Shown here: one piece after another, positions 40,761-59,216 of the stretch
Numbering within the stretch: position 1 is the first letter of the stretch
How the letters are laid out: every line of letters begins with the position of its first letter
Origin: Halobaculum magnesiiphilum
GTDB taxonomy: Archaea > Halobacteriota > Halobacteria > Halobacteriales > Haloferacaceae
Length of the DNA: 64,000 nt
Direction: 5' to 3'
Assembly: GCF_019823105.1 (NCBI RefSeq)
Contig: NZ_CP081958.1
Coordinates: forward strand, 682,001-746,000
Position numbers and translations under genes: made by a program
Notes under the pieces: model-generated
Told to the model about the DNA's origin: nothing
The model's database searches: none
Seen by the model: only the letters and a program-made list of their open reading frames with translations

Positions 40761-40843
40761 CTCACTTCCAGCCGACGAGACTGAGGGACGGACAGCTGTG
40801 GAGAACTGACAGATGCCCATGAGTGAGTTCCGAATTGTGGTGC

Positions 40844-40914: not shown

Positions 40915-40926
40915 TGGAGGACAACA

Positions 40927-41331: not shown

Positions 41332-41378
41332 TCCGTGCGTGTCCGCCGCACCTCAGCGCTTGATTTCGTCCCTACTGC

Positions 41379-41454: not shown

Positions 41455-41559
41455 CTCGGGGGGCTGGCTCTGACAGCGTTTTCCCGTGTCTGACATAGCT
41501 GGCAGCCACGGATCCGTGACGCTGTCACGGTCGGCTTTCCCCAAGCGTGTGGTCGTCCA

Positions 41560-41620
41560 GGTGGTGCGTTCCTTCAGCCCGCAAAGCACACCAACGGGAG
41601 TCATAGCCCGTCGCACCACC
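41560..41620 (+). ncRNA. 61-base element with 9-bp closing stem
   Basis: GGTGGTGCG (41560-41568) pairs perfectly with CGCACCACC (41612-41620). Inside, ACGGG and CCCGT (about 41594-41611) form a second hairpin with loop AGTCATAG. No T loop. Its 3' strand overlaps the 5' acceptor strand of the next tRNA-like element, so the two folds compete. Confidence 0.4.
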
Positions 41621-41702
41621 GGTTGCCCGACCGCACGTGGCGACCGTCGAGTCGGAGCGTTGCTTCGCTAGGAACTCGCAGGTTCAAATCCTGTCGGTGG
41701 CG
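41615..41702 (+). tRNA. tRNA-like element, class II size (88 bases)
   Basis: Acceptor ACCACCG / CGGTGGC with an A-C first pair; T arm GCAGG-TTCAAAT-CCTGT. Between lies enough for a D arm, anticodon arm and long variable arm as in tRNA-Ser/Leu, but the anticodon stem is not clear (CCG ... CGG around TCGAGT). Treated as tRNA-like. Confidence 0.45.
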
Positions 41703-41805
41703 CAGTCCATCGAGAACATCCCGGACAAAGAGCGTACGAGAGGACGCTCGACACCGGTTCCGCTCCGACAGTTTTCCGGTCGCCGTGTCGCCAGTGGCCG
41801 TCGAT

Positions 41806-41860
41806 CTGGAGCGTTATGTCGATGGCACTCTACGGGTTCGAATCCCGTCGTTCGCTCCAG
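41806..41860 (+). ncRNA. Minimal tRNA-like RNA: acceptor-type stem plus T arm
   Basis: CTGGAGCG (41806-41813) pairs perfectly with CGCTCCAG (41853-41860), enclosing a T arm ACGGG-TTCGAAT-CCCGT (41832-41848) and 18 unpaired bases where D and anticodon arms would be. Such a shortened acceptor/T-arm module recalls the tRNA-like domain of bacterial YrlA-type Y RNAs. Confidence 0.45.
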
Positions 41861-41879
41861 AAATTGTTCGGCCACTCGT

Positions 41880-42011
41880 GTTCCCGTAGCTCAGTCAGGA
41901 CAGAGCACCGTCAGAGCGAGACTCTGACGAGCCCTCCTTCGGGTCTTCGAACCTCACGAGGACACCGGCCTTCGAAGCCGGGTGTCGCACGTTCGAATCG
42001 TGCCGGGAACG
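41880..42011 (+). tRNA. tRNA-Arg(TCG)-like with 57-base insertion before the anticodon arm
   Basis: Acceptor GTTCCCG / CGGGAAC, D arm GCTC-AGTCAGGACA-GAGC, anticodon arm CCGGC-CTTCGAA-GCCGG (TCG), T arm GCACG-TTCGAAT-CGTGC. Removing 41908-41964 leaves a regular 75-base tRNA. The insert opens with a 7-bp hairpin CGTCAGA-GCGAGAC-TCTGACG. Archaeal introns are usually next to or in the anticodon loop, not between D and anticodon arms, so this is atypical. Confidence 0.65.
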
Positions 42012-42126
42012 TCCAGCCGAGCGATGCGAGGCTGGTTCGGGAAGTTTCTCTCCCGATACTCGCTGCTCACAGAGTGAGTGGGCAACATCGGTATCGGAGT
42101 CGCCTGTCGCGGCTCCAAGTGATAGG
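42012..42126 (+). ncRNA. Hairpin-rich leader of the Ro60 gene
   Basis: Successive stems: CCAGCC / GGCTGG (about 42013-42036), TCGGGA / TCCCGA (about 42036-42055), and GGAG-CGC / GCG-CTCC (about 42095-42116). No gene. Could be further Ro60 ligands or a structured 5' leader. Confidence 0.4.
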
Positions 42127-43656: not shown

Positions 43657-43954
43657 CCCTGTCCGAATCTTTCTTTGAGAATGTGCGAGTGGTGGAGTTC
43701 GGAACCAAGCGGTCGTGCCACGATCGAGACGGGCGTTCGAACTGTCCCTCGCGCACTCTGAGTACAGTTGTGGAACATCTGGACCGTGAGACGCGCCTTA
43801 ACGGAGAGGATAATACAGTGTAGTAATTCGCGTGGGGCGTTGGTTCAGCCAGATTCATCCGTGTCAGACAGCACGGCCCAAAACCACTTCTGAGCCGTCC
43901 CGGAGAAATTCACGAATGCCACGACGAGTGTCTTGGGACGGACGAGACAGGTCT
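43657..43954. other. Intergenic, no gene seen
   Basis: 298 bases between Ro60 and a convergent regulator. No further tRNA-like element or T-loop sequence found. A transcription end for Ro60 should lie here. Confidence 0.4.
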
Positions 43955-44410
43955 TCAGGCGCTGGATGAAGACAGATCCGGGCGCGGCATCTCTTCGATG
44001 TCGCGGATGCGGTCTGTCTTCTCGACGGACTGGTACTGTCGTTTCCAGGCGTTTTCTGGGAACAGACCGTTCTTGTCGAACAGTTTGCGAGCTGGCTCAG
44101 TAAGTCGGTAGAACTTGAAGGGGTAGCCTCTGACACGGTTCCCTACTTCGAGTTCCACTTCCTCAACTACCCCCACATCCATCAGCGTCTTCAGATGCCG
44201 ACGGATCGCGTCGTCACTTAGTGGAGGATTCATATAATCCAGTTCCTCCACAGTGGGGAGTCCGTTCGGATGGCCGACAATGTCCGCAAGGATGTCGGCC
44301 CGCTTCGAATCGGTGGCTTTCTGCAGTGCCCTCCAGGTATTGAACTCCTCAGTATCCTCAGTAGGGGGGTCATCAGCCTGGGGCGGGACGTGGCTCATAT
44401 CCGTAGACAT
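43955..44410 (-). CDS. Winged-helix transcriptional regulator
   Basis: 151 residues from ATG 44410; the extension to 44521 is hydrophobic and covers the divergent promoter. RADILADIVGHPNGLPTVEELDYMNPPLSDDAIRRHLKTLMDVGVVEEVE is an ArsR/MarR-like winged helix. Divergent from 44524; may control it. Confidence 0.68.
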   Translation of the reverse strand: MSTDMSHVPPQADDPPTEDTEEFNTWRALQKATDSKRADILADIVGHPNGLPTVEELDYMNPPLSDDAIRRHLKTLMDVGVVEEVELEVGNRVRGYPFKFYRLTEPARKLFDKNGLFPENAWKRQYQSVEKTDRIRDIEEMPRPDLSSSSA

Positions 44411-44523
44411 GTTCCCGACCAGCATAAACACTTGCATCAGAATGAGGTCGGTAGCACAAATACTATCACAACTAATTGGACGGAGATACCATAATTGAAG
44501 TGGTGAACGGACAGTGGACACCT

Positions 44524-45129
44524 ATGGATAGTGGCGAACGATCGGGGGACGAAGACGATTGGGAGAGATCACAGATCCCGGATGCAGACGAGATCATGGA
44601 CGGGATTGAGAGTATCAGCCTGACGCCAACGGAGCACCAACGGATCAAGGACCTCCTCAACGGTGAACGCCTGAATCGAATCAAACGGTTCGACCGCCGA
44701 TACCTCGTCGTCGGGGCGGGTGGGGATACAGCAGCAGCCGAGCGCCGGATGATCGTCTACGACCTGCTCGACGAGCGTACTGATCCCCCGGCTATTGCTA
44801 CCCGTTTGGAAGACTTCGGCCTCACCCCGGAAGACATCCGTCTGTGGGGACGCGTCTTCGATATTCTCTGCGGGGAGGCGACGCACATTGTCGGAGTACT
44901 CGAGGATTTCGACGGCGGCTACGTCTGGGAACTAGGCCTGCTATTTGCACCGGAGTACCGCCAGAAGGTATGGATTCTCAAACGGGCATATGAGAGCGAA
45001 CAGGAGGAACGCAGGCGATACGAGAACGGGATGGCAGCCTCACACGTCGAATTGCTTCTGACGGGAGAGCAGAGCGTTGAATGGGTAGATGTTGAAGACC
45101 TGAAGGCGGCGACGAACAAGATTCCATGA
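44524..45129 (+). CDS. Rossmann-like nucleotide-handling protein (TIR/deoxyribosyltransferase-like)
   Basis: 201 residues from ATG 44524 (GTG 44503 possible). RRYLVVGAGGDTAAAERRMIVYDLL starts an alpha/beta domain; THIVGVLEDFDGGYVWELGLLF with the E in VWELG is like the catalytic helix of nucleoside deoxyribosyltransferases and TIR-type NAD hydrolases. Its stop codon comes from the transposon end that begins at 45127, so the C-terminus may be cut. Could be an effector of a defence system; unproven. Confidence 0.5.
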   Translation: MDSGERSGDEDDWERSQIPDADEIMDGIESISLTPTEHQRIKDLLNGERLNRIKRFDRRYLVVGAGGDTAAAERRMIVYDLLDERTDPPAIATRLEDFGLTPEDIRLWGRVFDILCGEATHIVGVLEDFDGGYVWELGLLFAPEYRQKVWILKRAYESEQEERRRYENGMAASHVELLLTGEQSVEWVDVEDLKAATNKIP

Positions 45130-45240
45130 ACTACCCTACCCTGCCGCTCGGCTGACGGCTCGCGCTTGAGAGTGGGGCTTCCTGCTTCGATGGCGCGCTT
45201 TGCAGATGAGGAAGTGTCTATAGGGAGTGCAGTCTCCACA
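45127..45240 (-). repeat. Orphan right end of copy-C-type TnpB element (1)
   Basis: TGAACTACCC at the edge, then GCTTCCTGCTTCGA and TGCAGTCTCCACAGGCGT; matches 47717-47840 of the complete element with scattered changes. This region in a complete element encodes the end of tnpB and the guide-RNA scaffold. No tnpB body beside it. Confidence 0.6.
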
Positions 45241-45376
45241 GGCGTGTCTCCAGGTTATTCCTTCATCGCAAGCGAGAACCGAGGATACGTCTACCGGCTC
45301 TGTTGAACCCTCAGAAGATGACCAGAATGGTGTGCAAGATACAGTCGAAATACCGAACCCAAAGGGTATAGATGGG

Positions 45377-46003
45377 ATGTCCTTACAATGGGTCAAAATG
45401 GCTAGAATTGATGCCACTATCGAGACGTTACAGGAGTACACTTTCGTTCTCAAAATCCTCTTGTTGGTTCTTAGTGCGGTTTCAATAATCGGAGGTTCAA
45501 ACCTTCTTTCGACCAAACCTGTCTTGGGAGGGACTCTGATTTTTTCCGGTATTCTTCTCGACTTTGGTGTGTTGTTAATATATAAATGGGAGATTGAGAC
45601 GGTTCAGGACGAGATAGAGGACACTCAGACGGAAATTAACCAAACCAAAAGTGAGGTGAACGCCACCAAGAATGAGATTGCCCAAACCAAGGAAGAAGTA
45701 AACGCTACAGGAGAGAAAGTAGAGGGAGTTCAGGACTCTATTTATGAGAAGTTCGGAAGATACCGAGGCAGGGACAGTCTGGAGGGTCGAACAAATGAGT
45801 TAGAGGAGCAGATCGAGGATGTTGAGGAGGAATTAGAAGAATTGAATGATACTCTGTTTTCCCTCAGTGGAAGATACAGAGGGCGAGATAGCATTGAAGA
45901 ACGAATTGATGAACTCGAAGAGACGATTGAAAGTCTAAAAAGTGAACTGAACGACTGGGAGAAAGAAATGGGCGGAAAAGGACGCCGTTTCAAGCGCTTG
46001 TGA
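45377..46003 (+). CDS. Two-TM protein with internal coiled-coil repeat
   Basis: 208 residues from ATG 45377; the longer frame begins in the transposon remnant. Hydrophobic segments at about 20-42 and 50-72, then a long coiled coil. GRYRGRDSLEGRTNELEEQ and GRYRGRDSIEERIDELEET form an internal direct repeat. Unusually rich in A and T for this genome, hence probably recently acquired. Function unknown; membrane-anchored coiled coils of this kind occur near defence genes. Confidence 0.62.
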   Translation: MSLQWVKMARIDATIETLQEYTFVLKILLLVLSAVSIIGGSNLLSTKPVLGGTLIFSGILLDFGVLLIYKWEIETVQDEIEDTQTEINQTKSEVNATKNEIAQTKEEVNATGEKVEGVQDSIYEKFGRYRGRDSLEGRTNELEEQIEDVEEELEELNDTLFSLSGRYRGRDSIEERIDELEETIESLKSELNDWEKEMGGKGRRFKRL

Positions 46004-46234
46004 TTTCATCACCGAAAGCAACGGTTCCCCCTGTGCGAAGACGTACCAATCCGTACAGTTGTGCAAATTGATTGAAGTTTATACCGCGGTAGAAGCGTGC
46101 CTCACCCTCGGCATGTACAAGAGATATATTCAGAAGAGTGGTATCAACATTGACGAGTGAAATAAGAGCCCTATATGAACTCTCGGTTGAACAAGTGACC
46201 TGAGGTTCAAGTTTAAACGGTGGATTTCACGAGC

Positions 46235-46471
46235 ATGAATAAAACAATATTAATAATCGATTTGATCTTGGCTCTGCTCATTTCCTCGATCATTACGTCT
46301 GCTCTAGGTCCTGTATTTGAGTTGGGGTACACACAATGGATGGGTGCTGATGGGAGCGATTGGCCGTTACTAACCCGAATTGTATGGACACTGGTGGGAC
46401 TCTTCTTGTATAACCTACCAAATCTGATGGCGGTGTTTTCAATCATTGAAATAATACGGGCAAAATATTGA
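46235..46471 (+). CDS. Small membrane protein
   Basis: 78 residues from ATG 46235. Two hydrophobic segments, ILIIDLILALLISSIITSAL and IVWTLVGLFLYNLPNLMAVF. AT-rich like its neighbour. No family recognised. The 240 bases after it hold no clear gene. Confidence 0.5.
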   Translation: MNKTILIIDLILALLISSIITSALGPVFELGYTQWMGADGSDWPLLTRIVWTLVGLFLYNLPNLMAVFSIIEIIRAKY

Positions 46472-46713
46472 TCATTTGAACAAGTACTACCCAGATTCGC
46501 AGTTCCTTCCTATCGGCCAATTCAGATGCATATCACTGGAATGAAGGGGAGGAATGGCCTTCTGAATTCACCCTCTGCATCCTGCAACTCGTCGGTGTCT
46601 GATTTCGACTGGAAGTGACTCTATATCCCAATTCAGCGGTCGGCGCCCCCTCGGTAGCTCCCCTCACGAGTGGGTCACGTAGGCTTATTACGTACTATTG
46701 CAGTCTATTACAC

Positions 46714-47034
46714 ATGCCCATCAGCATCGACCACTTCGAGGACGATCCCCCGGACGTCCTCGATATCCAGGAGGGGACGCAACCGTATCGCATTCTTCAG
46801 TTCCTTGCCGAGAACAGCGAGCAGGCGTTCACACAGACGGAGATTCACGAAGCAACAGACATCAATCGCGGGAGCGTTGGAGCTGCGCTGTCGCGCTTGG
46901 AGGAACGGGGCCTCGTCCGCCACCGCGGGCGGTACTGGGCCATAGCAGACGATGATCGCCTCGCCTCGTACGCGGCGCAAATGAACGCCAGCTCTGTCTC
47001 GACGACTGACGATTCCTACGGGGAAAAGGCCTGA
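46714..47034 (+). CDS. MarR-like antitoxin without its toxin
   Basis: 106 residues from ATG 46714. ISIDHFEDDPPDVLDIQEGTQPYRILQFL and FTQTEIHEATDINRGSVGAALSRLEERGLVRHRG form the winged helix of the MarR-type antitoxins that in haloarchaea precede MazF/PemK-like toxins. Here the next bases hold only 75 bases of unrelated sequence and then a transposon end, so the toxin is missing. Confidence 0.68.
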   Translation: MPISIDHFEDDPPDVLDIQEGTQPYRILQFLAENSEQAFTQTEIHEATDINRGSVGAALSRLEERGLVRHRGRYWAIADDDRLASYAAQMNASSVSTTDDSYGEKA

Positions 47035-47108
47035 TCTCGGCGTCCTCCCAGAACTGGTCGGCTACGGTGACCAGTGAACTCGCGCTGTTCCCTTCGATGT
47101 GGCTCTGG

Positions 47109-47232
47109 TGAACTACCCCACCCTACCGCTCACCTGACGGCTCGCGCTTGAGAGTGGGGCTTCCTGCTTCCACGACGCGCTTTGCAGGTACGGACGTATC
47201 CACAGGGAACGCAGTCTCCACAGGTGTCTGAT
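47109..47232 (-). repeat. Orphan right end of copy-C-type TnpB element (2)
   Basis: TGAACTACCCCACCC, GCTTCCTGCTTCCACGACGC and GCAGTCTCCACAGGTGT match the right end of the complete element at 47717-47840 almost base for base over about 120 bases. No transposase gene attached. It lies just behind a toxin-less MarR-type antitoxin. Confidence 0.65.
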
Positions 47233-47277
47233 TGATGGAGTCGAACCTAAGTATGTGTAGACTCCACACATGCAAGA

Positions 47278-47673
47278 ATGGCAGAAGAGAGAACCCGCGT
47301 CGATTTCAACGCTCCGACGTCCCTCGTCGAACGCGCAGACAGCGTCGTTGAGATCCTCGACATCTCTCGAACACGGCTCCTCATCGATGCCCTCGAGGAC
47401 GAACTCGAAGAACTCGCAACCAACGAGGAGTTTCGGCGGCGGCTCAGCGACGCCTACTACGACGGCCGTATCGACTACGACACCGTCGAATCCGTCCTGG
47501 GCCGTGAGGAAGCGCTCCGAATGAAACTCCTGCGAGAATCGATCGACCGGACGCCCCCTGAGCCCCAACTTGAAGATGGCCTGCCGAGCGACGATGCGTT
47601 CTACGATGACGATCTCCCAGAGTGGACGGACTCGCAGTCATCTGAATCGTCGGACGATGAGTCGCACGCCTGA
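47278..47673 (+). CDS. Ribbon-helix-helix-like antitoxin
   Basis: 131 residues. TRVDFNAPTSLVERADSVVEILDISRTRLLIDAL is a ribbon-helix-helix type DNA-binding start; the rest is acidic with a disordered tail. The next frame begins 2 bases after the stop and is the remnant of a PIN toxin, the usual partner. Confidence 0.65.
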   Translation: MAEERTRVDFNAPTSLVERADSVVEILDISRTRLLIDALEDELEELATNEEFRRRLSDAYYDGRIDYDTVESVLGREEALRMKLLRESIDRTPPEPQLEDGLPSDDAFYDDDLPEWTDSQSSESSDDESHA

Positions 47674-47675
47674 GG

Positions 47676-47720
47676 ATGTCGGAGAAAGCCGTTGCGGTTG
47701 TTGATACCAACTATTGGTGA
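47676..47720 (+). pseudogene. PIN-domain toxin, truncated to 14 residues by a transposon
   Basis: MSEKAVAVVDTN is a usual start of haloarchaeal PIN RNases; after DTNYW the frame hits the TGA that forms the edge of the TnpB element. The remainder of the gene is not found on the far side of the element, so it was deleted. Confidence 0.6.
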
Positions 47721-47731
47721 ACTACCCCACC

Positions 47732-48961
47732 CTACTCGCTCACCGCTGACGCGGTTCGCTCCTTGAGGGTAGGGCTTCCTGCTTCCACGACGCGCTTTGC
47801 AGATACGGACGTATCCACAGGGAGCGCAGTCTCCACAGGCATTGATTCGGAGTGAACCACCCCTACTTCTTCGAGACCGCGAGACAGAATATTCCACGCC
47901 GCATTCGCGTCCCTATCCGCCTCAAACCCACACGAAGGACACGAGTGTTCACGAACCCACAGCGGTTTGTCTGTCTTGACGCCGCAGGACGCACACTCTT
48001 TCGTCGTATCTTTCGGGTCAACTGCGGCGAAGTGCGTTCCTTCGCGTTCACACTTGTATTTGAGCATCCGAAGGAATGTCCCCCACGCCGCGCCTGCCCG
48101 GTTCCGCGAGTTGCCCGGCAGTTCGACCAGCCCCTTCGCGTCCAAGTCCTCGACCGCCACGAAGTCGTACTCGGTGGCGTAGTAGTTCGAGAGTTTGTGT
48201 AAGAAGTCTCGCCGCTTGTGCTTCAGGTCGGCGTGACGTTCGGCAACGACCTTCCGTTGTTTCTCCCAATTCGCAGAGCCGTGTTCCTTCCGCGAGAGGT
48301 TGCGTTGAGCGCGTTCCAACCGGTCGCGCTCGTCGCTGAAATCGGGACTTTCGATGGCGTATCCGTCGGTGTCGTGGGCGTACTTCAGGATACCAACGTC
48401 GATTCCAACGACTCGTTCGGGAGTCTCCGGTTTCCTGGGCGTTGCTTCGTCTACGTCGATACCGAACGTGGCATACCACTCCCCTGTCGGTTCCTGCTTG
48501 ACCGTGACCTGTTTGATGGTCGCGTTCTCGGGGATGTCGCGGTGAAGGTGAATCGAAATCTCACCGATTTTACTCAACCACAACGTAGGCCGACCACTCG
48601 TATTCTTGAGTTTGAAGCCGGACTGGTTGTAGGTGAGCGACCGATACTCCCGAGGCGGTTTCCACTTGAGCATTCCCACGGCGCGTCCGTTCTCCTTCTG
48701 CGCTGTGAGCGTGGAGAGGTTGTCGTAAACGCGCTTGACGACCATCTGGAGGACTTTCGAGTGAACATCTCCGAGGTCGTCCCACCACGATTTGAGGTCG
48801 GGAAGCCGTCCCTGAACCTCGTAGCGAGCAGGAATGTCGTCTGCCTCGTTGAGCAGGTAGAGGATGTGGTTGTACAGTTGTCTACAAGTATCGACTTGGT
48901 GTAGAAGTGTCTCGGTGAGGGTGTCTGACGGGTCGAGTCGATACTTGTAGTTGTAGTGCAT
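47732..48961 (-). CDS. tnpB: TnpB RNA-guided nuclease, copy C
   Basis: 409 residues. RuvC-like residues D188 (VVGIDVGIL), E271 (FVAVEDLDAKGL) and D351 (EADRDANAAWNIL); zinc ribbon Cys 323, 326, 341, 344. N-terminal MHYNYKYRLDPSD with LYNHILYLLNEA as the usual start. Shares little with copies A and B outside the catalytic part. Complete, so probably active. Confidence 0.87.
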   Translation of the reverse strand: MHYNYKYRLDPSDTLTETLLHQVDTCRQLYNHILYLLNEADDIPARYEVQGRLPDLKSWWDDLGDVHSKVLQMVVKRVYDNLSTLTAQKENGRAVGMLKWKPPREYRSLTYNQSGFKLKNTSGRPTLWLSKIGEISIHLHRDIPENATIKQVTVKQEPTGEWYATFGIDVDEATPRKPETPERVVGIDVGILKYAHDTDGYAIESPDFSDERDRLERAQRNLSRKEHGSANWEKQRKVVAERHADLKHKRRDFLHKLSNYYATEYDFVAVEDLDAKGLVELPGNSRNRAGAAWGTFLRMLKYKCEREGTHFAAVDPKDTTKECASCGVKTDKPLWVREHSCPSCGFEADRDANAAWNILSRGLEEVGVVHSESMPVETALPVDTSVSAKRVVEAGSPTLKERTASAVSE

Positions 48962-48964
48962 GGA

Positions 48965-49111
48965 CTATTCGTTTGAGTCGGGTTCGGAGACTCGCACGAC
49001 TTTCACGTCGGCTCCGCGCCAGCGTTTGGGGACAATGACGTGGGCACTGTTCCCCGACGGTTTTGCGGTTCCGTCGAGGACTTCTTGGCCTTCGATTTCA
49101 AACCTATCCAT
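48965..49111 (-). CDS. DUF2080-like transposase-associated protein
   Basis: 48 residues from ATG 49111. DRFEIEGQEVLDGTAKPSGNSAHVIVPKRWRGADVKVV is an AbrB-like short DNA-binding fold seen directly upstream of haloarchaeal tnpB genes. Ends 3 bases before the tnpB start, so both are on one transcript. Confidence 0.75.
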   Translation of the reverse strand: MDRFEIEGQEVLDGTAKPSGNSAHVIVPKRWRGADVKVVRVSEPDSNE

Positions 49112-49279
49112 CACCGATGTATATACTATGGATAGACATAAAGGTAGCGGTGGGCCTGTGAGTCGAGCGGTGGACGTGTTTGAGAATCGTGCGGCGCTGT
49201 ATCCCCTCCCTACTGCGCTACTCGGTCGCTTCGCTCCCTGCGTTGCTGCTTGAGGAAGGGGACTTAGCACCTAATTCCA

Positions 49280-50092
49280 TTAAATCGTCATTGAGTTCCG
49301 TTCTACCCGTCCATCCGTTATCGTGACTGTGTCTTTCTCTTTCAGTCGCCTCACAACCTCCTGTACGTCCGCTGCAGGCCAGTGAAGTTCTTGTTGCAGG
49401 TCACCCACTGATTTCGGTTCGTCAAGCGCGTGCAGCATTTCGAGTTCCTCATAGACGCGCTCGGTGATCTCCGCAACGGGCTCGTGCAATGGCGTCGTTA
49501 CATTGTGTTGCTCGGAAAGATCAGTCAGCGCCTCGTTCACGTACGTCACGAAGAGCTCTTGATTTAATAGATCAACCTGCGTTTTGAGTTCTGCTTCGAC
49601 GACGTCGAACTCGAGCCCGGTCTGCATCAACGAAAACATATCCTCGATGTCGTTCACCCGACCGGCGACTGCTTTGAACAAGAAGATGTCTTCTGGACCT
49701 ACGAGCTGGACCACCAGGTTACCTGGGTTGAGATACCGTTCGCTCCGCTCACGAATACCTTGAGAAAGAATCAGTTTGCCAATCACCTGCTGGTTGAATA
49801 CGTCGATACGACACCCATCATCGTTCTCGAGGATTCGTTGGGCACCGAGTTCTTCATACTCTTCGTTCGGTTCCCTGACGATATCGTATCCCAGTTCGAG
49901 GAGCACCGCTTGGAGCTGACTCAGATCATTGCCAGAGGAGACGATGAGGTCGATGTCTTTTGTGGTTTCTTTGAGTTCACGAAACGCCATCGACCCTCCG
50001 CCAATCATGAAGACGGTGAGTGGGTTGTCCAGCTGCGTGCCGATACGCTCGAGTTCTGAGCGAATGTATGAGCGATCGAACCTCGCTCTCAT
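49280..50092 (-). CDS. Nucleotidyltransferase (DUF6036/AbiEii-like), locus 2
   Basis: 270 residues from ATG 50092, which overlaps the regulator stop (ATGA). VFMIGGGSMAFRELKETTKDIDLIVSS carries the GGS ... DID active site of minimal nucleotidyltransferases; a helical C-terminal domain follows. Intact paralogue of 31459-32256. In AbiE-type systems the enzyme is the toxin and may modify tRNA; that activity is not shown here. Confidence 0.75.
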   Translation of the reverse strand: MRARFDRSYIRSELERIGTQLDNPLTVFMIGGGSMAFRELKETTKDIDLIVSSGNDLSQLQAVLLELGYDIVREPNEEYEELGAQRILENDDGCRIDVFNQQVIGKLILSQGIRERSERYLNPGNLVVQLVGPEDIFLFKAVAGRVNDIEDMFSLMQTGLEFDVVEAELKTQVDLLNQELFVTYVNEALTDLSEQHNVTTPLHEPVAEITERVYEELEMLHALDEPKSVGDLQQELHWPAADVQEVVRRLKEKDTVTITDGRVERNSMTI

Positions 50093-51012
50093 ACGGTCAC
50101 CTCGTATTCGTCTGCCAGTTCCTGGAAGTCCTCCCACTCAGGTAGCCGGGACGTCCGCTGGTCACCGCTGGTGTCGAGATATGTGCATAGTTCCTCGACG
50201 GCGTCGTCGACGCCGTACGTGGCGGCTTGGGCCCGGAGTTTGTCGCGGTCGATGTCGACCTGACTGAGCAAGAGCAGGCAGTACGACTGCGCCCGTGTAC
50301 CCGAATCGATCACGAGCATGTGACAGCACAATGTCTCCGGCGAGAGCTCATTCGTCGACTCCGAGTAGAAGTAGTATCGACGTTCACGTGCCAACAGCGG
50401 GAGGCCATATCGCTGGAATTGGTCTGGACCTGTCGGAAGGAACTGTTCCTGGGCGATCTCAGTCGTCGTCTGGACAAGGAATTCATCGAGAGACTCCCAC
50501 AGAATGGTGTACGTGTGGGTCTGTTCTTCGACAGTGTTGCGGTGAGTGTGATGGGCCAACTCACGAGCGAGTACGCTCAGCTGTTCGAAGCCGTCATTCA
50601 GTACATACGCTCCGTCGTCAGTTTGGTAGACGATTCCGCGATGTTGAAGCGGGGCTAGTGCACGGTGGACGGTGCTTCTGTGGACGTCGGCATGGCATGC
50701 GAGGTCGGTCACGGTCCGTGGGATGTCGAGATAGTAGCACACACGGAGGGTTGCACCAGACAACAGTTCCGGCCAGTCAATGTGTGAATACTGCTGCGTG
50801 AGGTCCGTGAGTACCTCGAGTGCCTTTGCGTCCGACAGCCGGAGTTGCTTTGTTTTCCCCTTTCGGCGTGTCTCGACGAGACCAGCCCGTTCGAGCCGTT
50901 GAAGCAGTTCAGAGGTGTAGCTGAGACTTCGATCGAGATTCGTTGCGAGTTCAGAGAGCGTTTGCTCACCATGGAGAGCACTGAGGGCGCGAACTTCACC
51001 TGCTGTGAGCAT
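50089..51012 (-). CDS. Two-winged-helix regulator, partner of nucleotidyltransferase (locus 2)
   Basis: 307 residues from ATG 51012; an in-frame 29-residue extension is unlikely. LSELATNLDRSLSYTSELLQRLERAGLVE (about 20-50) and VTDLACHADVHRSTVHRALAPLQHRGIV (about 105-132) are two winged helices; a C-terminal domain of about 170 residues matches that of 33733-34704 (LSPETLCCHMLVIDSG against LTPGEVVCHTLALDSG). Likely antitoxin and repressor. Confidence 0.74.
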   Translation of the reverse strand: MLTAGEVRALSALHGEQTLSELATNLDRSLSYTSELLQRLERAGLVETRRKGKTKQLRLSDAKALEVLTDLTQQYSHIDWPELLSGATLRVCYYLDIPRTVTDLACHADVHRSTVHRALAPLQHRGIVYQTDDGAYVLNDGFEQLSVLARELAHHTHRNTVEEQTHTYTILWESLDEFLVQTTTEIAQEQFLPTGPDQFQRYGLPLLARERRYYFYSESTNELSPETLCCHMLVIDSGTRAQSYCLLLLSQVDIDRDKLRAQAATYGVDDAVEELCTYLDTSGDQRTSRLPEWEDFQELADEYEVTV

Positions 51013-51127
51013 GCTATTGCATACTAGCGAATCGATATATAAATCATTTCGGTATTTTGCAACACACGATGGACGCACTCGAGGGCGAAAAGATACCACT
51101 GAAAGTCCTCCGTTCAGAAAGCCCTGG

Positions 51128-51175
51128 TGAACTGCCTCGGGGTCAAGCCCCGAGGCACTCGGCCTGTTCCGTCTG
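51128..51175. repeat. Transposon-end hairpin, copy 2
   Basis: TGCCTCGGGG (51133-51142) with CCCCGAGGCA (51148-51157), a perfect 10-bp stem with 5-base loop, then ACTCGG and CTGTTCCGTCTGTAGA. Matches the reverse complement of 31030-31075. Remnant of an element end. Confidence 0.5.
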
Positions 51176-51209
51176 TAGATGGGTTCCTGATGGTGACCGA
51201 CAGCCCCTG

Positions 51210-52592
51210 CTATGCGTTCGTCTCAGTAGTCAGCAGGTCAGACAATTCGAAAAGCCGGACGTCAGCTCGTCTGTCAGCGGTGTGTTGGAGGTCGTCAGTG
51301 TACCCGGAGCGGCTGAACAAGACGTACAGCGTCTCCCCGTCTGCCGGCTCTTCTGACCATCGGACTTCCGACACTGTTCGCTCGAGGTCGGCGAGGACGC
51401 CTTCGCTTACGGGTTGGGATGTGAATTTACACTCGCCAGCGACGAGGCCATCGCTGGTGAGGCCGAGGACATCCAGTTCGTGTTCCTTGAACCACCACTG
51501 TCCGAGGTCACGGAATTGCCGAACGATGAGGTCTGGGAGCGCTCGCTGGCAAAGCCGTTCGAACAGCGGGCTCACGTAATCCGCTAGGTCAGGTTCGACG
51601 AGTTCGTCGTACGCATCGTCCTCGAGCATCCGAAGCTGGTCCTGGTTCCCGTAGACGAATCGGAACCAAAATCGAAACAGCGGCGCAGCGATACGATACC
51701 GGCCGCGTTTCGACGCCGTCGGTGATTCCGTTACGGGGATGTGGCGTTCGACGAGACGGAGGCGGCGGAGTTTCTGGAGGTACGTGCTGAGCGACCCTGA
51801 CTCCACGCCGGCCATACCGGCGATTTCGTTCGGGGTGCGTCGCCCGTGGGCGAGCGCTCGGAGGATGCTGAAGTACGTATTCGGCTGTCGGAGTTCGGTT
51901 CGGAGCAGGAACTCGGGTTCGGAGTATAGGAGCCCGCGCTCCGAGAGGATCCCCTGCTGGACGTTCGTTCCAAGCGACTGATCAGGATCGATGGTCTGGA
52001 GGTAGTAGGGAGTGCCGCCGTAGATCGACCATGCCGTGATGGCTGTCTCCGGATCGTACTCTGGGAAGAACTGGCGCGCGTCGGGTACATCGAGGGGCTT
52101 GAGATCGATCGTCGCGGTCCGCCGGCCGTACAGGGGTGCGCTTCCCGAGAGCACCTTATCCTCCATGACACTGATCGATGAGCCGACGAGCACGAGCGTC
52201 ATCCCAGTCTCCTGTAGCTCCAAGTCCCAGACTCGCTGGATCCGTGACGGGAGCGATTCGTCCTCCCCGATAAGGAACGGAAACTCGTCGATAACGACGA
52301 CGGCGTCTTGGTCGCCGAGTGTGTCGAGAAGTACCTCCCAGTCGCGGCGGACGTTCTGCAACGATGGGAACTGTGCAGTGGCGGTGTCGACAAACTGTTC
52401 GAGTTGGTTCTGTGCCGTGGACTCGACGGCCTGGTAGTAGACAGCGTCATCCCGATCAATGATAGACTGGCGAACGAGCTCGCTTTTGCCGAGGCGACGA
52501 CGACCATAGATGACGACGAAGTCTGCAGTCTCGGACTCGTAGCAGTCCGTGAGTTGATCGAGTTCGACATCTCGATCAATGAATTGCTCCAT
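51210..52592 (-). CDS. Archaeal AAA ATPase with DUF234-type C-terminus
   Basis: 460 residues from ATG 52592. VIYGRRRLGKSELV is the Walker A region, VVVIDEFPFLIG Walker B, and VGSSISVMED sensor 1. A winged helix (IAGMAGVESGSLSTYLQKLRRLRLVER) and the DUF234 nuclease-like region (DVLGLTSDGLVAGECKF) follow. Family spread in archaea, function unclear; proposed roles include DNA-binding and mobile-element control. Confidence 0.78.
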   Translation of the reverse strand: MEQFIDRDVELDQLTDCYESETADFVVIYGRRRLGKSELVRQSIIDRDDAVYYQAVESTAQNQLEQFVDTATAQFPSLQNVRRDWEVLLDTLGDQDAVVVIDEFPFLIGEDESLPSRIQRVWDLELQETGMTLVLVGSSISVMEDKVLSGSAPLYGRRTATIDLKPLDVPDARQFFPEYDPETAITAWSIYGGTPYYLQTIDPDQSLGTNVQQGILSERGLLYSEPEFLLRTELRQPNTYFSILRALAHGRRTPNEIAGMAGVESGSLSTYLQKLRRLRLVERHIPVTESPTASKRGRYRIAAPLFRFWFRFVYGNQDQLRMLEDDAYDELVEPDLADYVSPLFERLCQRALPDLIVRQFRDLGQWWFKEHELDVLGLTSDGLVAGECKFTSQPVSEGVLADLERTVSEVRWSEEPADGETLYVLFSRSGYTDDLQHTADRRADVRLFELSDLLTTETNA

Positions 52593-52927
52593 ACCTCCGA
52601 TACTATCCCCATTCAAATAGAACTCCCGATTTTGGAAATCATAGTTTCAGAAATCTCGATTTCTATCTGCTGTTTGCCTCAGGGCTCTCAGGTGCTCACT
52701 CCAACGTTGGTCACCTGCAACGCACAGCCCTTCGACCAGATACGCGTCGCCGTGGTCCAGCGACAGTGCGAGTCGGTCACGGGAGAGTAGCCGTATTTGA
52801 GCCGATCGAACCGGACAGTACAGCCGTTTCAGTCATCGAATCGGCGCTGTTCGGGCGTGTTACGTAGAATCAAGAACGTCTCCAGTTCTCCGCACATCCC
52901 ACAAAAAATACTCTCCCCGGACTGACG
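52593..52927. other. Intergenic, no gene seen
   Basis: 335 bases. Promoter for the ATPase should lie near 52600-52680, which is AT-rich (ATTTTGGAAATCATAGTTTC). No other feature noticed. Confidence 0.4.
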
Positions 52928-55345
52928 CTACGCCAGACTTGGTTCACCAAGCGCATCCCGCAGATGCTTCATGGTGAACACCTCGGTCAGTCCGGCGCAG
53001 TCGATCGCATCGTTCACGTCACGCATCGGCGTTCGTTGACTATACGAACTCTCGATTCGTGGCTCCCCGTCTGCCGGGTCAGAGAGCGGTCCGATAATTG
53101 CTTGATGGGCAGCCTTCCGGGTGACGGCCGCCCACAACACCTCTGAGGCTCCCAACTCGGCCATCTTGTCGAAGTCACGCGGAGCGGCCTCCGCAGCGTC
53201 GTTGTTCTTGCGTTCGCCTTCGCCAGCGACGACGACGGTTCCATCACCATCAACGCCGGCGACATCGACACGAAACGCCACCTCTGGCGGTTCATAATAC
53301 GGGATCACCCGCTCGACTGGTGACTCCTCACTGTGCTTGTACTCCGTCACAATATAGCGACGCAGCGCCTCGACTAACGCCCGGTGGGTGGCAGTCTCCT
53401 CGAGGTCGCCGTAGCCGTCGCCATGATCGATCCCCTCGCGATTGTGCTCGTTCAACAGCGCGCGACCCTCGCGAGTCACGGTGTACAACGTCGCACGTAG
53501 GCCGTCGTCTCGCTTCACCAGGCCCGCATCCAGCAACTCATCGAGCTCGTCACGAGAGAGCCCACAGTACTTGCGCAACTCGACCATCGAGTCGTGCACG
53601 AGGTCGTACTCCGCAGGCGAGTAGACACCCCGGGTCGCATTGAGGACGACCTGGAGGAACACCATCCCACGGATGGAGACATGCGCCGCTGCGACCTCCT
53701 CGGCCGACAGCTTCAGCCGTGCCTCGATCGTCGGGATCGACTCCGGCGCAATGTCAGCCAGGGAGTGGTGACACCGCACGGCCTCCAACAACCCAGTATA
53801 CGACGGGTCGTATAGCCGCGAACACGAGGGGTGCTCACAGGCGATCGCGTGGTGGGAGTCGGCATACGAAACACAGTCGGGCAACACCGATGTCACCGGC
53901 AGTGTCGTCCCTGTCTGGATAACCGACGGCGTCTCCGACGGCTCGGAGGCGTCCGCGACAGTGACGTGTTCGTATGCGTTCGGGTGGATCCCGCACTCCT
54001 GGCGTGTCCGCTCGATGAGTTCCTCCAATGTTGCATCAAGTTCCCGACGCTCGTCAGCCGACAAGGGCCGCGCACTGTCGGGATACCCCGCAGGCAACTC
54101 CGGCGACCGGATCGGCACCGTCGTCGCCGAACGCCCGTCGAACGTCTCGGGCGGTGGCCGAAACAGCCACCGCCCCTGTGGCAGCGCACTCAACACCTGC
54201 TGTGTCTCGGCGGGCGACATGCTTCGGACCGACAACTGACTCGCCAACACGGGATCGTCGGGAATCTGCCCGGCGATAAACGCGTGTGATTCCGTCACCA
54301 GTTCGCGATAGAGCCGGTCAGGTGCATGCGAGTCGTGTTTGGCCTGGCCGGGGAACTGCATCGAGGCAACGAGCGACAGCCCGTAGCCGCGGCCCTCCGA
54401 GAACATCTCCGACAACAGCGGTGTCAACGCGATGTTGGCCACCTCTTCGATGTGCACGAGCACGTGCCCCGGCGTCACGTCGAAGGGGAGTCGCGAGCTC
54501 CGGCGTTGCAACGCGAACCACAGCGACGCCAACACGACGATCGCGATTGCCCGTTGGGCAGCGCCCGCGATCCCGCCCAGATCGAACAGGACGGTCACAT
54601 CCGAATCCAGCACCTCCTCAAAGGTGAACTGCGGCGTGGACTCGTCGGTAGCGACGTGATTGAAGATCGCCGCGAGATCAGCCTGCCCGGAGACACGCTC
54701 CAGACTGGTCACGACGCCAGCCATGGTCGCACTCCGGAGGTCTTCACGCTCTTGGGCGAGCCCCTCCAACACGCGGGCGGCCCGGTCGCTGGAGACGGCC
54801 GGCACCGAATCGCCGTGTTGGATGGCACGCGCTTCCTCGAGCAAGGCGCTGTGGCGAAACGTCTCACTCCCGTGTGCCGGATCGAAGGCCGCACGGATCA
54901 ACGCCCGAATGGTCGTCTCTGTTCGCTTGCCGAACTCGCCGTCGCCGACGAGATACCGGATCACCTCCAGATACCGGTCAGCCCGGTTCTCGATGGCTCG
55001 CGACCGCTCGATCCCCGCGTCGAGATCCGCGCGGATGTCGAAAAACGACAGCGCGGGCAACACCTCGCCGACGGGAATGTACACGACAGAGTCGAGATCC
55101 TCTCCGCGGGCAACCAGCGACCGAATGATCCGTTCGCTCATTCCGTCGCCTTTGCCATCGATGAGGATCCGTGGCCCCGCCAGTTCCTGGTGTGCCGAGG
55201 CGAACAGCGCCTCACCGAGGACTGACTTGCCGGTGTTGGTCTTGCCACACACCAGCGTGTGAAACGGCAGACACTCCACGGGGATCTCGACGGGGCGTAG
55301 TCCGTCACCCCGTCGCTTCTCGATCTGGCCGATCGTGAACCCCAC
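52928..55345 (-). CDS. Conjugation-type ATPase (TraD/VirD4/HerA-like)
   Basis: 805 residues. Walker A GKTNTGKS at about 34-41; HVLVHIEEVANIALTPLLSEMFSEGRGYG holds Walker B-type acids and the following helix of VirD4/HerA motors; SQLSVRSMSPAETQQVL resembles the arginine-region helix. A long C-terminal region has a winged-helix-like part and an endonuclease-like end (VAFRVDVAGVDGDGTVVVAGEGERKNN). Likely the DNA pump of a conjugative or integrative element. Overlaps the next gene by one base. Confidence 0.75.
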   Translation of the reverse strand: MGFTIGQIEKRRGDGLRPVEIPVECLPFHTLVCGKTNTGKSVLGEALFASAHQELAGPRILIDGKGDGMSERIIRSLVARGEDLDSVVYIPVGEVLPALSFFDIRADLDAGIERSRAIENRADRYLEVIRYLVGDGEFGKRTETTIRALIRAAFDPAHGSETFRHSALLEEARAIQHGDSVPAVSSDRAARVLEGLAQEREDLRSATMAGVVTSLERVSGQADLAAIFNHVATDESTPQFTFEEVLDSDVTVLFDLGGIAGAAQRAIAIVVLASLWFALQRRSSRLPFDVTPGHVLVHIEEVANIALTPLLSEMFSEGRGYGLSLVASMQFPGQAKHDSHAPDRLYRELVTESHAFIAGQIPDDPVLASQLSVRSMSPAETQQVLSALPQGRWLFRPPPETFDGRSATTVPIRSPELPAGYPDSARPLSADERRELDATLEELIERTRQECGIHPNAYEHVTVADASEPSETPSVIQTGTTLPVTSVLPDCVSYADSHHAIACEHPSCSRLYDPSYTGLLEAVRCHHSLADIAPESIPTIEARLKLSAEEVAAAHVSIRGMVFLQVVLNATRGVYSPAEYDLVHDSMVELRKYCGLSRDELDELLDAGLVKRDDGLRATLYTVTREGRALLNEHNREGIDHGDGYGDLEETATHRALVEALRRYIVTEYKHSEESPVERVIPYYEPPEVAFRVDVAGVDGDGTVVVAGEGERKNNDAAEAAPRDFDKMAELGASEVLWAAVTRKAAHQAIIGPLSDPADGEPRIESSYSQRTPMRDVNDAIDCAGLTEVFTMKHLRDALGEPSLA

Positions 55346-56694
55346 TAATCGTCACCCTTGAACATATCATCAAGGTCGTCATCGTCGTTCGAGAACTGGG
55401 ACTCACGGTCGGTCTGGCCGAGAGCCCCCGCATTTGCGTCCGTCTCCGAGGCAACGAAGTCGATCACGCCTCCCGGGAGGACGATCGGCGTCCGCTTCTC
55501 GCGAAGCGGGTTCCCGAACGGGCCCGGCAGCGAGATATCCTGCTTGACGATCGATCTGGACCCGTCCCAGACACAGTTCGGACTGAGCACCGCCGGCGGT
55601 GACCGGCGAGCCGACCCCACAGACTGGCTGTTGATGTGGATCGTCGCTTTCAATCCAGGCGTTCGGTCGATGTAGGCCTTGATATCGCCCAAGGCAGAGG
55701 TGAGTGCATCGGTTCCAGCGGATTTGTGACCGACAGTGAAGCCGACAGCCGTCGCCTGGAACTGCCCGGTCGCAGTCTCAGCGTGCTCCACGATATCCGA
55801 TGTTTCCGGATGGGCACTGTCTCGCTTCTCCAACTGCCTGAGGCGGAACAACGGAATGTCGACAGGCACGAGGCGGAACTCAACGCCGGCATACGGGACG
55901 CTCGATCGCCGAAGTGTCCGTACCAGCCGCTCGCCGGGGATTTGGTTCAGGTCATCCTGCGAGGTTGCTTCGGGGACGATGATCGATCCCGGGCTCTCCG
56001 CTGCGACCGTAATATACCCAGTACACAGCGTCAGGGTGTCCGAGGCCTTCCCACAGGCGTCAGTCGCGGCCGCATGCAGCGTTGCATGTGTCGAGGGACC
56101 ACTGTCTACATCGCGACCCAGACTTTTGTCGACGACCGCATCGACATCGATGTCGCCGTCAGCGCCGATGGTCGCTTCAACCCCTGAGTCCGTTTTGACT
56201 ACTGTGCTCCGGGCGGTTGACTCGGACGTCATCCCCCGAGTCATCGATGGGATGAGCACAATGATGCCCCCTATCACGAACAGCACTGTCACAACCGCCA
56301 AGACGCCGATCACCCGCCCCCCGAACAGCGGGAATGTCCAGAGTGCGCTTCTGATGAGCGGGTGGAGCGTTCCAGGCAGATACTGTATTGGGCTTGTGGG
56401 GTCGACGAACGCCCACACTGCGCCCACAACCGCGACGACGATGCTAATTGCAATCGGGATGGTGATAACCCCGACCCACCGGTTCTTCGTCCGCAGTTCA
56501 TCTCGAACCGGTTCAGTGACAATTCCACAGACCGCTGTGAGCCGCTCGAGCGCCCGGGTGAACAGTGACCGGCCCGGGACGCCGTGGTGCAACTCCTCGC
56601 CGAACTTGCTCGCGATCACCTCATCCGATAGCCGATCGATCAGTGAGTGTGCTCGCGCCGATACGTCAGGCCGAGATGCGTTGTCTTCTTTCAT
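55345..56694 (-). CDS. Membrane partner of the conjugation-type ATPase
   Basis: 449 residues. Two or three hydrophobic segments (WVGVITIPIAISIVVAVVGAVWAF, VIGVLAVVTVLFVIGGIIVL), then a large soluble part without recognised domain and an acidic tail (SNDDDDLDDMF). It shares an operon with the ATPase and may anchor it. Name not assignable. Confidence 0.6.
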   Translation of the reverse strand: MKEDNASRPDVSARAHSLIDRLSDEVIASKFGEELHHGVPGRSLFTRALERLTAVCGIVTEPVRDELRTKNRWVGVITIPIAISIVVAVVGAVWAFVDPTSPIQYLPGTLHPLIRSALWTFPLFGGRVIGVLAVVTVLFVIGGIIVLIPSMTRGMTSESTARSTVVKTDSGVEATIGADGDIDVDAVVDKSLGRDVDSGPSTHATLHAAATDACGKASDTLTLCTGYITVAAESPGSIIVPEATSQDDLNQIPGERLVRTLRRSSVPYAGVEFRLVPVDIPLFRLRQLEKRDSAHPETSDIVEHAETATGQFQATAVGFTVGHKSAGTDALTSALGDIKAYIDRTPGLKATIHINSQSVGSARRSPPAVLSPNCVWDGSRSIVKQDISLPGPFGNPLREKRTPIVLPGGVIDFVASETDANAGALGQTDRESQFSNDDDDLDDMFKGDD

Positions 56695-58667
56695 TTCTGC
56701 CAGCGATTTCGATGTTGAGAATCATAGTATATAAGAACTAGTCCGTTTATTTGATACGTGCATGGGAATTTCTCGCAAGAATGTACCGGAGTCAGACGGT
56801 TTTCTTGCTGATATTGAATGTCTGTAGGACTGATAAGTCGGGGATTCCTCGCGAGCTGATCACTGTCGACGCAGCTGTCCAGGTCGCTCCGGCAGCCACC
56901 CGAAGGGTGGATCACCGATCCCCACCCCTTCGTTTCTACTCCACAGCTACGTGAGGGGACAATCGCCGATTGTGAGAGGCTCTACGCCAAGGATCGCCCG
57001 TCCACAGGCTGCATGACGCTCCGCAATAGGGAAGAGAGAATCCAAGCAAAGAACAATACAGTACAGACAGCCACAGACGCGACACGGGGGCCAGGGGCCC
57101 CGCACATCGCTTCCGCCGGAGCACCGACGGAAGCGGAGGACAGCGATGTGACGCGTCTTGGCAGTGATCACGTCCCACGTCCGGTTAGACTATCTGTTCC
57201 ACATGCTCGGCCCGATTCGGTCGAAATCAGCGTCCGTTCACAGAGCCACAGCCGTGTATTTGGGACAGAGAGTCTGTGGAACGGTAGATCTGCGATTTAC
57301 CGCTGATGTGTGGCGACAGTCGGTGCAGCCCGTGGGCCTCGCATCGACAGTGGGTGAACCAGTGTTCGGTGCGGTGATTGCAGTCTGTCGTGGTACAGTC
57401 GGGCGCACATCTGCCTCGCCGATGTTCCTCATAGCCTTGCTGTGACGGACAGATTGCGCTCAGGGACCATTCCCTGTCAACTGAGTGTTCTGGTGCATCA
57501 CCAGCCGATGTCGTGTGTCAATACGGACGTGGTCGTCTCCAGCGGTTCCAGCCCGTTGTGGTTCCGACGACCGACCAGAAGCCGAGGCGATCGCTGCTAC
57601 CGCTCGGCGTGACACAAGGTCGAACCCACTCATAGGGAAGCATGCAGTCGGATGAGTCGCCGTCAAAACCGGCCACGCCACCGAAACGGGGTCCAACAGG
57701 TTCTCCAAGTCCAAGCAGCATGCTCACGCCCACGACTAGGGATCACTGTTGCACCAGATACAGCTAGCCAAGGCTTCCACAGAGTCACACACCGGCTCAC
57801 TGGTGCAATCACCGGTTATGTGAGTTCTTCTCTGTCGGCTCGCCGCCTCCGACATCCCTCACCGCAGAACTGACGTGGCGGGGCACCAACCTCTGCTCTC
57901 TTCTGCTGGAAACTCCATTCTCTGCGATGGCTTGTCACCCTCTCAGAACGCAGCGAACAGGTGTGTCGTCTTCGCCGATGTCACATCAGCCGGGACTGTG
58001 TGTGAACCGGTCGGCCTCGCGGCCGTGGCGTCGTCGCGTGTGGCCCACCGCGCGTCGCTTCCGTTGGGGGTGGGCTCGTTTGCTACTGACTGGTGTATTG
58101 GTATTCTATTCTCCTCTTGCGGACCCTGTGTCAAACCGTGATCCGTCCGGCTCGATTCAACATCCACCTACTGAGCCTTTGATTGGTTCACCATCCTGTG
58201 GAGAGACTTCAGAACCAGACTGGAACTATTTGGCCGACTGTGTCTTGAGACAGTAAATGGGTGGTAGAGGCCTTCCACAGGCCATATTCGCCTGTGGAAT
58301 TCTACCGATGAGTCTGTGGAATCTGGTGTTATGGGATCCGTGGGTGTCGCTGAATCACCTTGCGCCGGGTATTCCAATACGTTCGTTTCGAGTGGAATAG
58401 ATTCTGTTCAGAATTGCCTGTGGACGTTGCTGGGGTCACTGTTGTGGGGCCCCTAGCAGACATCTTCAGGCAACCCGAAACAGCGACCTGATTGCTGCAG
58501 GTGTCAGCATCGGCCCAGAGGGAATCGCCGGCGAGTGCACCTACGGCCGACGACGAGATCGCCGATTCGACGAAAATGCCGAGGATGATGGTTCAGTCCG
58601 GTCCCACGGATGACACAGAACCTCGGCACTCCAAACCACTGCCATGGTGGTGTATAATTCGACCTGA
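56695..58667. other. 2-kb gene-free region with CTGTGGA/TCCACAG repeats
   Basis: No convincing gene on either strand. TCCACAG or its complement occurs about nine times (near 56939, 56999, 57270, 57776, 58194, 58274, 58292, 58313, 58419). TTCCACAGGC and GCCTGTGGAA form a perfect inverted repeat at 58273-58299. A hairpin lies at 57103-57150. Such clustering fits a binding-site array, possibly an origin or control region of the element; it is not a known haloarchaeal origin motif. Confidence 0.45.
58273..58299. repeat. Perfect inverted repeat of the CTGTGGA motif
   Basis: TTCCACAGGC, seven bases, GCCTGTGGAA. Single copies of the half-site follow near 58313 and 58419. Strongest member of the repeat family in the gene-free region. 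Confidence 0.55.
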
Positions 58668-58710
58668 TCAAACAATCAGTGCGAAGCGGGTAGGCCCGGA
58701 GCTGACTGAC

Positions 58711-59216
58711 GCTACCGCTTCAGTTGAAACCCGCGACGGTCGAAGTATCGCCACCACACCGCCCCCGGGATATAGCCGAGACGTGAACGACGCGAGCCCC
58801 GCGGCCATGAGAAATAGACCGCCTGCTGCAAGCAGAAACGGTTCTGCACCGAGAACCAACATGACGGTATCGCCATCGAACCCGGCGCCCTGCACAGGGA
58901 ACTCTCGGTAGAGCGGCCGTGGGGACTGAACCAGATTGAATACCGCCCGAACTGCGTAGAACAGAACGATGCCGCCCATGACGAAAGAGAGGTGCGACAG
59001 GCGTTTCCACCGAAGTCCTGCGACCACGCTTCCGACACTAAGCGCCCCTAACTGCACGAGCAGTACCTCTTCGTGATTCAGGCTTCCATCCCAGCCGGAC
59101 ATAATGGTCCCCTCGTATCCCGGAGCGACGTGGACTAACCCCTGATAGACGCCGACACCGATGGCTGCAAACCCAGCGATAGCCAACGCTAACGGGACGA
59201 ATCGATGGATATCCAT
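58711..59216 (-). pseudogene. Membrane protein truncated by a TnpB-element end
   Basis: Four hydrophobic segments (LALAIAGFAAIGVGVYQGLV, VLLVQLGALSVGSVVAGL, FVMGGIVLFYAVRAVFNLV, PFLLAAGGLFLMAAGLASF). After LRPSR the frame reads VSTEAVASV, encoded by CGCTACCGCTTCAGTTGAA on the opposite strand, the left end of copies A and B. The frame then runs on to a stop at 58668. So the natural C-terminus is lost. Confidence 0.55.

Follow-up and report, generated by a model that had tools for sequence, protein, structure and literature searches.

The window, which is the whole stretch of 64,000 nucleotides of Halobaculum magnesiiphilum DNA that was analysed, contains a non-coding region with an array of short repeats, and beside it lies an operon that encodes a motor ATPase and its partner protein. 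G000 denotes the genome of the window, G394 a sister genome, L003 a locus of H. gomorrense, and G158 a genome of the same genus that is taken to be that of H. gomorrense. The genes of the operon and the features of the array are:

52928-55345, minus strand: motor ATPase, TrwB/TraG/HerA-like, with a conserved Cys; 72% orthologue in H. gomorrense
55345-56694, minus strand: partner protein encoded upstream of the ATPase, with two membrane helices predicted; H. gomorrense has a 32% relative
56695-58667, no strand: non-coding region with the array
56940-56946, plus strand: core iteron TCCACAG, 61 nt ahead of the next; the 61-nt spacing is also found in L003 (reverse complement), L209 and L210
57001-57007, plus strand: core iteron TCCACAG, part of the left composite site
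57021-57028, plus strand: CCGCAATA box, at +20 from the iteron start
57274-57280, minus strand: additional iteron, present in G394 and absent at this place in L209 and L003
57776-57782, plus strand: additional iteron, present in G394 and absent at this place in L209 and L003
58115-58122, minus strand: inverted CCGCAAGA box (TCTTGCGG on the plus strand)
58196-58202, minus strand: additional iteron, present in G394 and absent at this place in L209 and L003
58273-58299, no strand: perfect inverted repeat TTCCACAGGC-7-GCCTGTGGAA, which contains two core iterons (58274-58280 and 58292-58298); the offsets of 18 and 22 are conserved
58314-58320, minus strand: last core iteron of the right arm, inside the 58-nt match to H. 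gomorrense and part of the triple pattern
58357-58358, no strand: right end of the segment shared with G394, 37 bp past the last core iteron
58418-58424, minus strand: additional iteron, outside the homology with G394

The sequence-only reading had proposed a cluster of the word CTGTGGA/TCCACAG in a gene-free region, and its description of the locus is confirmed. Nine copies are present in 1.49 kb (56940-58424), with exact matches to CTGTGGA at 56940(-), 57001(-), 57274(+), 57776(-), 58196(+), 58274(-), 58292(+), 58314(+) and 58418(+), and a tenth copy at 56524 lies within the neighbouring gene. The whole genome contains 287 copies in 3.73 Mb, and therefore about 0.15 would be expected per 1973 bp (Poisson P about 1e-13). 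A comparable density was not seen elsewhere, as 20 sampled 20-kb stretches of the same genome (400 kb) contain 28 copies and at most 2 per 1973 bp. CTGTGGA is also the most over-represented 7-mer of 56695-58667 given the first-order composition of that region (9 against 0.45, P 1.4e-9), and the best 7-mer among 60 simulations of this composition reaches P 3.9e-6. The 64-kb window has 21 copies against 8.56 expected, a count that none of 100 dinucleotide shuffles of the window reaches, and which is partly inflated because four copies (47199, 47217, 47814 and 47832) sit within repeated sequence by a TnpB gene at about 47.2-47.8 kb. The 10-bp inverted repeat is perfect (TTCCACAGGC at 58273-58282 and GCCTGTGGAA at 58290-58299), the adjoining ATPase operon is real, and the region has no convincing gene: enclosed open reading frames of at least 80 aa reach 109 aa at most, and a 139-aa frame (58492-58911) spans the right edge. 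Rfam gives no family above the gathering score and one sub-threshold match only. Plasmid DNA shows no similarity to the region, and DNA matches in other haloarchaea are short and GC-rich, which we read as chance.

Five of the iteron copies and two CCGCAA boxes form two rigid arms, with the layout iteron-61-iteron(+20 box) ... box-159/160-iteron-18-iteron-22-iteron. The spacings of 61, +20, 159 or 160, 18 and 22 are the same in all four arrays of this type, which are those of the window, G394, L003 and G392, while the box-to-box distance is 1094 in the window, 1102 in G394, 701 in L003 and 453 in G392. One iteron of the L003 array reads TCCACAA. An ungapped 58-nt match of 74% (E 3e-5) joins 58264-58321 to L003 2467-2524, and by blastn the array centre of the window has no match to the centres of L003 and L209. 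The triple-iteron pattern, at up to two mismatches, is found in 5 of 392 genomes (G000, G158, G020, G241 and G231) and its reversed control in none. The left composite TCCACAG-N13-CCGCAAKA has four exact matches among 11 genomes of the genus (G000, G158, G392 and G394), and only these four were used because, with one mismatch allowed, the reversed control had 38 matches and the pattern itself 9.

In H. gomorrense the array lies upstream of the orthologous ATPase operon, and a repeat cluster in non-coding DNA beside the motor gene is present in the window, L003 and L210. Around the array of G392, 19.5 kb of sequence contains neither the ATPase nor the partner, and the ATPase relatives of that genome are of 39% identity or more distant only. 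In a third relative, L053 (ATPase 44%), CACAGAC occurs six times with P 2e-5, simulations reached 8e-7, and CCGCAAG was not found in the stretch searched, so this cluster is only suggestive of a related array. The expectation that the motif would stand near related ATPases holds for the close orthologue, and distant relatives carry a different but comparable iteron. Within the centre of the H. gomorrense array, L003 2920-3000 contains a short tandem repeat, CTGCAGCAGATTA.

The best PDB match of the ATPase profile is TrwB (E 1e-4). At E of 0.1 or less, TrwB_AAD_bind is matched by 16 of 17 members (best 1.9e-9) and TraG-D_C by all 17, while the window ATPase alone matches TraG-D_C only, at 0.0019 and below the curated cut-off. 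The best matches of the motor are to TrwB and TraG/HerA, and its FtsK match is weak. Matches to winged helices are also weak, and the ATPase probably carries such a domain. The alignment shows D694, E709 and E711 (D...ExE) near the end of the protein, a possible PD-(D/E)XK nuclease-like part that has no database match. AlphaFold predictions of the whole ATPase and of its last 266 residues, made with only two input sequences, gave no usable model (mean pLDDT 31.5 and 36.0, respectively). A simple hydropathy scan finds no membrane helix in the ATPase frames of 52 surveyed loci. Comparison by hhalign of the N-terminal part of fused relatives with the membrane partner gives a probability of 0.4%, with no recognisable kinship.

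Six backbone genes are common to the window and H. gomorrense: the ATPase, its partner and four genes of 28167-30750, which in G158 stand beside the ATPase. In the window, about 22 kb with TnpB genes, tRNA genes and a Ro60-type protein separates the ATPase pair from these other genes, which are listed here with two recombinase genes:

22231-23628, plus strand, and 24165-25178, minus strand: two tyrosine-recombinase genes (Pfam Phage_integrase)
28167-28415, minus strand: MarR-like HTH protein (MarR_2 match), 35% identity
28556-29173, plus strand: ORF205, 62% identity
29170-29847, plus strand: ORF225, 57% identity
29911-30750, plus strand: ORF279, coiled-coil, 75% identity

The two recombinase genes possibly, though not demonstrably, belong to the array-bearing element. 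The array stands at the end of a shared and probably mobile segment: the sister genome G394 is 97% identical to the window over 43863-58357 (14.5 kb) and then departs, and the PrpF neighbour of the window lies on a different contig there. Of six genomes in the genus of G356, four show none of the ATPase DNA upstream of a conserved gene for a HAD-type hydrolase, with the left flank in G356 unmatched; two genes that are adjacent in G261 and G270 are separated in G273 by an ATPase piece and an array. A search for 11-nt direct repeats at the L079 boundary found none.

Relatives of the ATPase at E of 1e-30 or less are present in 193 of the 392 genomes of the order, and among the matches listed most lie in open frames of about 1150-1400 aa. 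The downstream DNA of 52 ATPase loci was compared; these are mostly top-ranked matches, a non-random sample in which several genomes occur twice. Within 1.1 kb downstream of the ATPase, the top 8-mers are CCGCAAGA and ATTATGAA, each in 12 loci against 1.0 expected, and GATTATGA, in 13 against 1.2, although many of the 52 loci show no array by the motifs used. A search allowing two mismatches found 72 iterons close to and downstream of the ATPase end. With one mismatch allowed, CCGCAAGA stands exactly at +20 in 19 of them and at no other offset in the range scanned; in 954 kb of control DNA from elsewhere, it stands at +20 in 5 of 168 iterons and at other offsets in 3. A second type of site, iteron-N6-TCTWKCGG, occurs at +17 in 9 of the 72. 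The composite site of the distant relatives is TTCAYAATCGG-N9-CCGCAAG. In 15 loci with such iterons the common downstream DNA is only 22-53 nt, with many of the matches at composite sites, and the close pair L083/L095 is the exception. Upstream of the ATPase, the 1.1 kb of the same 52 loci contains recurrent words at several loci, GAAAGGGGC / GAAAGCCCC and CGAAGGC, which probably belong to a separate dispersed element.

That the region 56695-58667 holds a functional cis-acting DNA site is strongly supported, because the arms keep identical spacing around unrelated centres in three Halobaculum lineages and a consistent composite site occurs across the family.

When one mismatch is allowed, TTCAYAATCGG-N9-CCGCAAG occurs at 119 sites spread over 48 of 392 haloarchaeal genomes and 25 of 95 genera, against 3 for the reversed pattern; the window's own genome and G158 have none. 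The sites form 93 loci, 26 of which have two sites that are 272-466 bp apart and face inward in 25 cases. At least 25 of the 93 loci lie within 8 kb of an ATPase among the matches listed, with about 0.14 expected at random. All 25 are on the 3’ side of the ATPase, 20 of them within 1 kb of the match end. Genomes with sites have an ATPase at E of 1e-30 or less in 43 of 48 cases (38 counted and five from the genome table), against 150 of 344 other genomes (Fisher 6e-10).

The remaining 68 loci have no ATPase within 8 kb among the matches listed. None of 20 such solo loci that were fetched has an ATPase homologue in its 15 kb by tblastn at E 1e-3, and at up to two mismatches 13 have two composite sites, all inward-facing, and 7 have one. 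G314 has four copies of the array with common sites and spacing and with different spacers. In three orthologous solo arrays of one genus the sites are better kept than the spacers, and in one of the three a TnpB gene has apparently inserted alongside, removing the fourth site and the edge of the third. The genes flanking solo loci are mixed, and the most widespread common family is TnpB-type (4 of 20). Four genomes with sites have no ATPase match (G125, G022, G023 and G360), and G273 has fragments only. G125 has an inward pair of composite sites, and G022, G023 and G360 have only one or two single one-mismatch sites each, which may be chance. By eye, two solo loci (L182 and L194) and one ATPase-linked locus (L079) lie near similar GTPase-like, glyoxalase-like and surface-glycoprotein-like genes, a possible insertion hotspot.

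An association with viruses is not supported. The composite patterns have 4 and 60 single matches in IMG/VR, which we read as chance; the 60 have no window-type triple, the 4 have no second composite site, and IMG/VR contains no relative of the ATPase. In two viral contigs (L218 and L219), single TTCATAATCGG-like sites recur far apart in a pattern that both contigs share, without forming an array.

The first reading had offered a replication origin, a transfer origin or a partition site. The transfer type fits best among these three, because the recurrent neighbour is a TrwB/TraG-like motor, which in all 25 distant loci near a listed ATPase has the array on its 3’ side. We tentatively read the array as a transfer or docking locus, similar to oriT or clt, for a coupling-protein-like motor. 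At somewhat below an even chance, it is the best reading because the array is linked to a TrwB-like motor, keeps a fixed geometry and sits at the segment end. The array would be multi-site DNA at the right end of the mobile segment, and we infer that proteins recognise its iterons and CCGCAA boxes, bind them in a fixed arrangement and assemble a docking complex there. The neighbouring ATPase would load on this complex, its own winged helix possibly reading the iteron and its nuclease-like end possibly cutting, and DNA would be pumped from the array during transfer from cell to cell. Chromosomal solo arrays could be extra docking sites served in trans. They may have another role, because an ATPase is missing from the surroundings of many loci and is undetectable in four genomes with sites. 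These four genomes, and the G392 array without a close ATPase, would also be compatible with a host function or with relics. A wider proposal is doubtful as a whole: a haloarchaeal cis-system in which rigid arrays, scattered over chromosomes and mobile islands and with lineage-specific iterons and a common +20 CCGCAA box, would dock a DNA-reading and DNA-cutting motor that exports chromosomal DNA in mating.

In Tn7- or Mu-like elements the recombinase binds several sites at each end. The array could likewise be the end or ends of a transposon-like or integrative element, with solo arrays as remnants or non-autonomous copies, which we consider unlikely. The inverted arms, the homology with G394 that stops 37 bp outside the right arm, and the ATPase piece with array inserted between two genes in G273 are consistent with it, as are the tyrosine recombinases in the window, three more beside the solo array L191, and the TnpB-type genes at 4 of 20 solo loci. 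Against it, both arms lie within about 0.5-1.4 kb around a non-coding centre, the four copies in one genome combine common sites with different spacers, and the orthologous solo arrays of three species keep their sites better than their spacers, unlike decaying transposon remnants. No recombinase family is common to more than 4 of the 20 solo loci.

A host chromosome-organisation or partition (centromere-like) site, borrowed by ATPase-bearing islands, is quite improbable. It would suit the solo copies, which occur one to several per genome among unrelated genes, the arrays kept at orthologous positions and the sites in genomes without an ATPase match, but only 48 of 392 genomes have sites at the stringency used, the six backbone genes include no recognised ParA/ParB-like gene, and the sites are strongly enriched on the 3’ side of one motor family.

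The replication origin of an integrated plasmid, suggested by iterons and an inverted repeat in a gene-free region beside an integrated element, is very improbable: it is unsupported because Pfam recognises no replication initiator (Orc1/Cdc6 or Rep) in the six backbone genes, and the solo copies have no widely shared neighbouring gene. Least probable is a transcription-control region, which would agree with the split type, where the array lies upstream of the operon of partner and ATPase, but not with 25 distant ATPase-linked loci that have it on the ATPase 3’ side, with solo arrays L187 and L188 between converging genes (by rough gene calls, based on acidity and GC position) or with window iterons that extend 1.7 kb upstream.

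The docking or transfer reading can be compared with known systems. For T4SS coupling proteins and Streptomyces TraB-type motors, DNA transport starts at a defined cis site, according to the available text of PMC5365140 and PMC4170104. TraB and its clt locus, which has 8-bp TRS repeats, are similar to the present system, as far as these texts describe them, in that a DNA motor goes with short repeats at a cis locus, and clt-like sites on the chromosome are a further likeness to the array. TraB is hexameric with a C-terminal DNA-reading motif, features that the ATPase may share. The motor described here is TrwB/VirD4/HerA-like and non-FtsK, with a conserved Cys and perhaps a nuclease-like end. 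Its sites are composite (iteron and CCGCAA box) and stand in rigid arrays of two arms, which can be complete even where they occur solo. The ATPase frames of the 52 loci have no membrane helices, which is a real difference from TraB.

By sequence, the motor belongs to the same broad family as the VirD4/TrwB proteins that act with oriT in type IV secretion. It differs in that Pfam recognises no relaxase in the six backbone genes and in that the array has two arms around a variable centre. As to the N-terminal membrane helices expected of VirD4/TrwB proteins, two helices are predicted in the separate partner and none in the surveyed ATPase frames. Thermus TdtA is also a HerA/FtsK-type motor on an ICE (ICETh1), with a separate nuclease that aids DNA donation and no DNA-binding domain detected, as given in the available part of PMC5365140; here the motor chain itself includes the putative nuclease-like part, and a repeat array is nearby. 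Haloarchaeal integrated elements with fusexin, HerA, VirB4 and VirD4-like genes share HerA/TraG-like motors and Xer-type recombinases with the present one, and the accessible text on them describes no cis-acting array, unlike here (PMC9259645). The SNJ2/Rep-Arvir origin, in the portion of PMC13107129 available, is a conserved non-coding element that lies just downstream of a haloarchaeal gene, the product of which presumably acts there. This is a likeness, but it consists of a hairpin with a Rep endonuclease and no such Rep is recognised here.

According to the available text of PMC5496957, the molecular basis of DNA movement in haloarchaeal mating is unknown. Among literature titles and abstract openings, a coverage that leaves out most subscription papers and all preprints, no such array and no haloarchaeal cis-acting transfer site was found. 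An array tied to one motor family offers a concrete sequence to delete, move or pull down, and it can be found by pattern in other genera. Even should the transfer reading fail, an explanation is still required for the composite sites, a non-coding element that is conserved across 25 genera.

Other parts of the window contain further observations. The stretch 40171-43756, within the mobile region, has seven tRNA genes (ARAGORN) and tRNA-like pieces recognised by eye, beside a Ro60/TROVE protein (42127-43656), and is possibly a carried tRNA/Ro RNA-handling cassette. Two copies of an HVO_2833-type regulator with a partner gene are found at 31459-34704 and 49280-51099; the partner of one copy matches a nucleotidyltransferase family, that of the other appears similar on inspection by eye, and the two genes are perhaps a toxin-antitoxin pair. 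Three near-copies of one sequence, seen by eye at 45180-45245, 47150-47230 and 47750-47840, contain several CTGTGGA words between them; the last adjoins the TnpB gene at 47732-48961, and the near-copies resemble transposon ends or guide-RNA regions.
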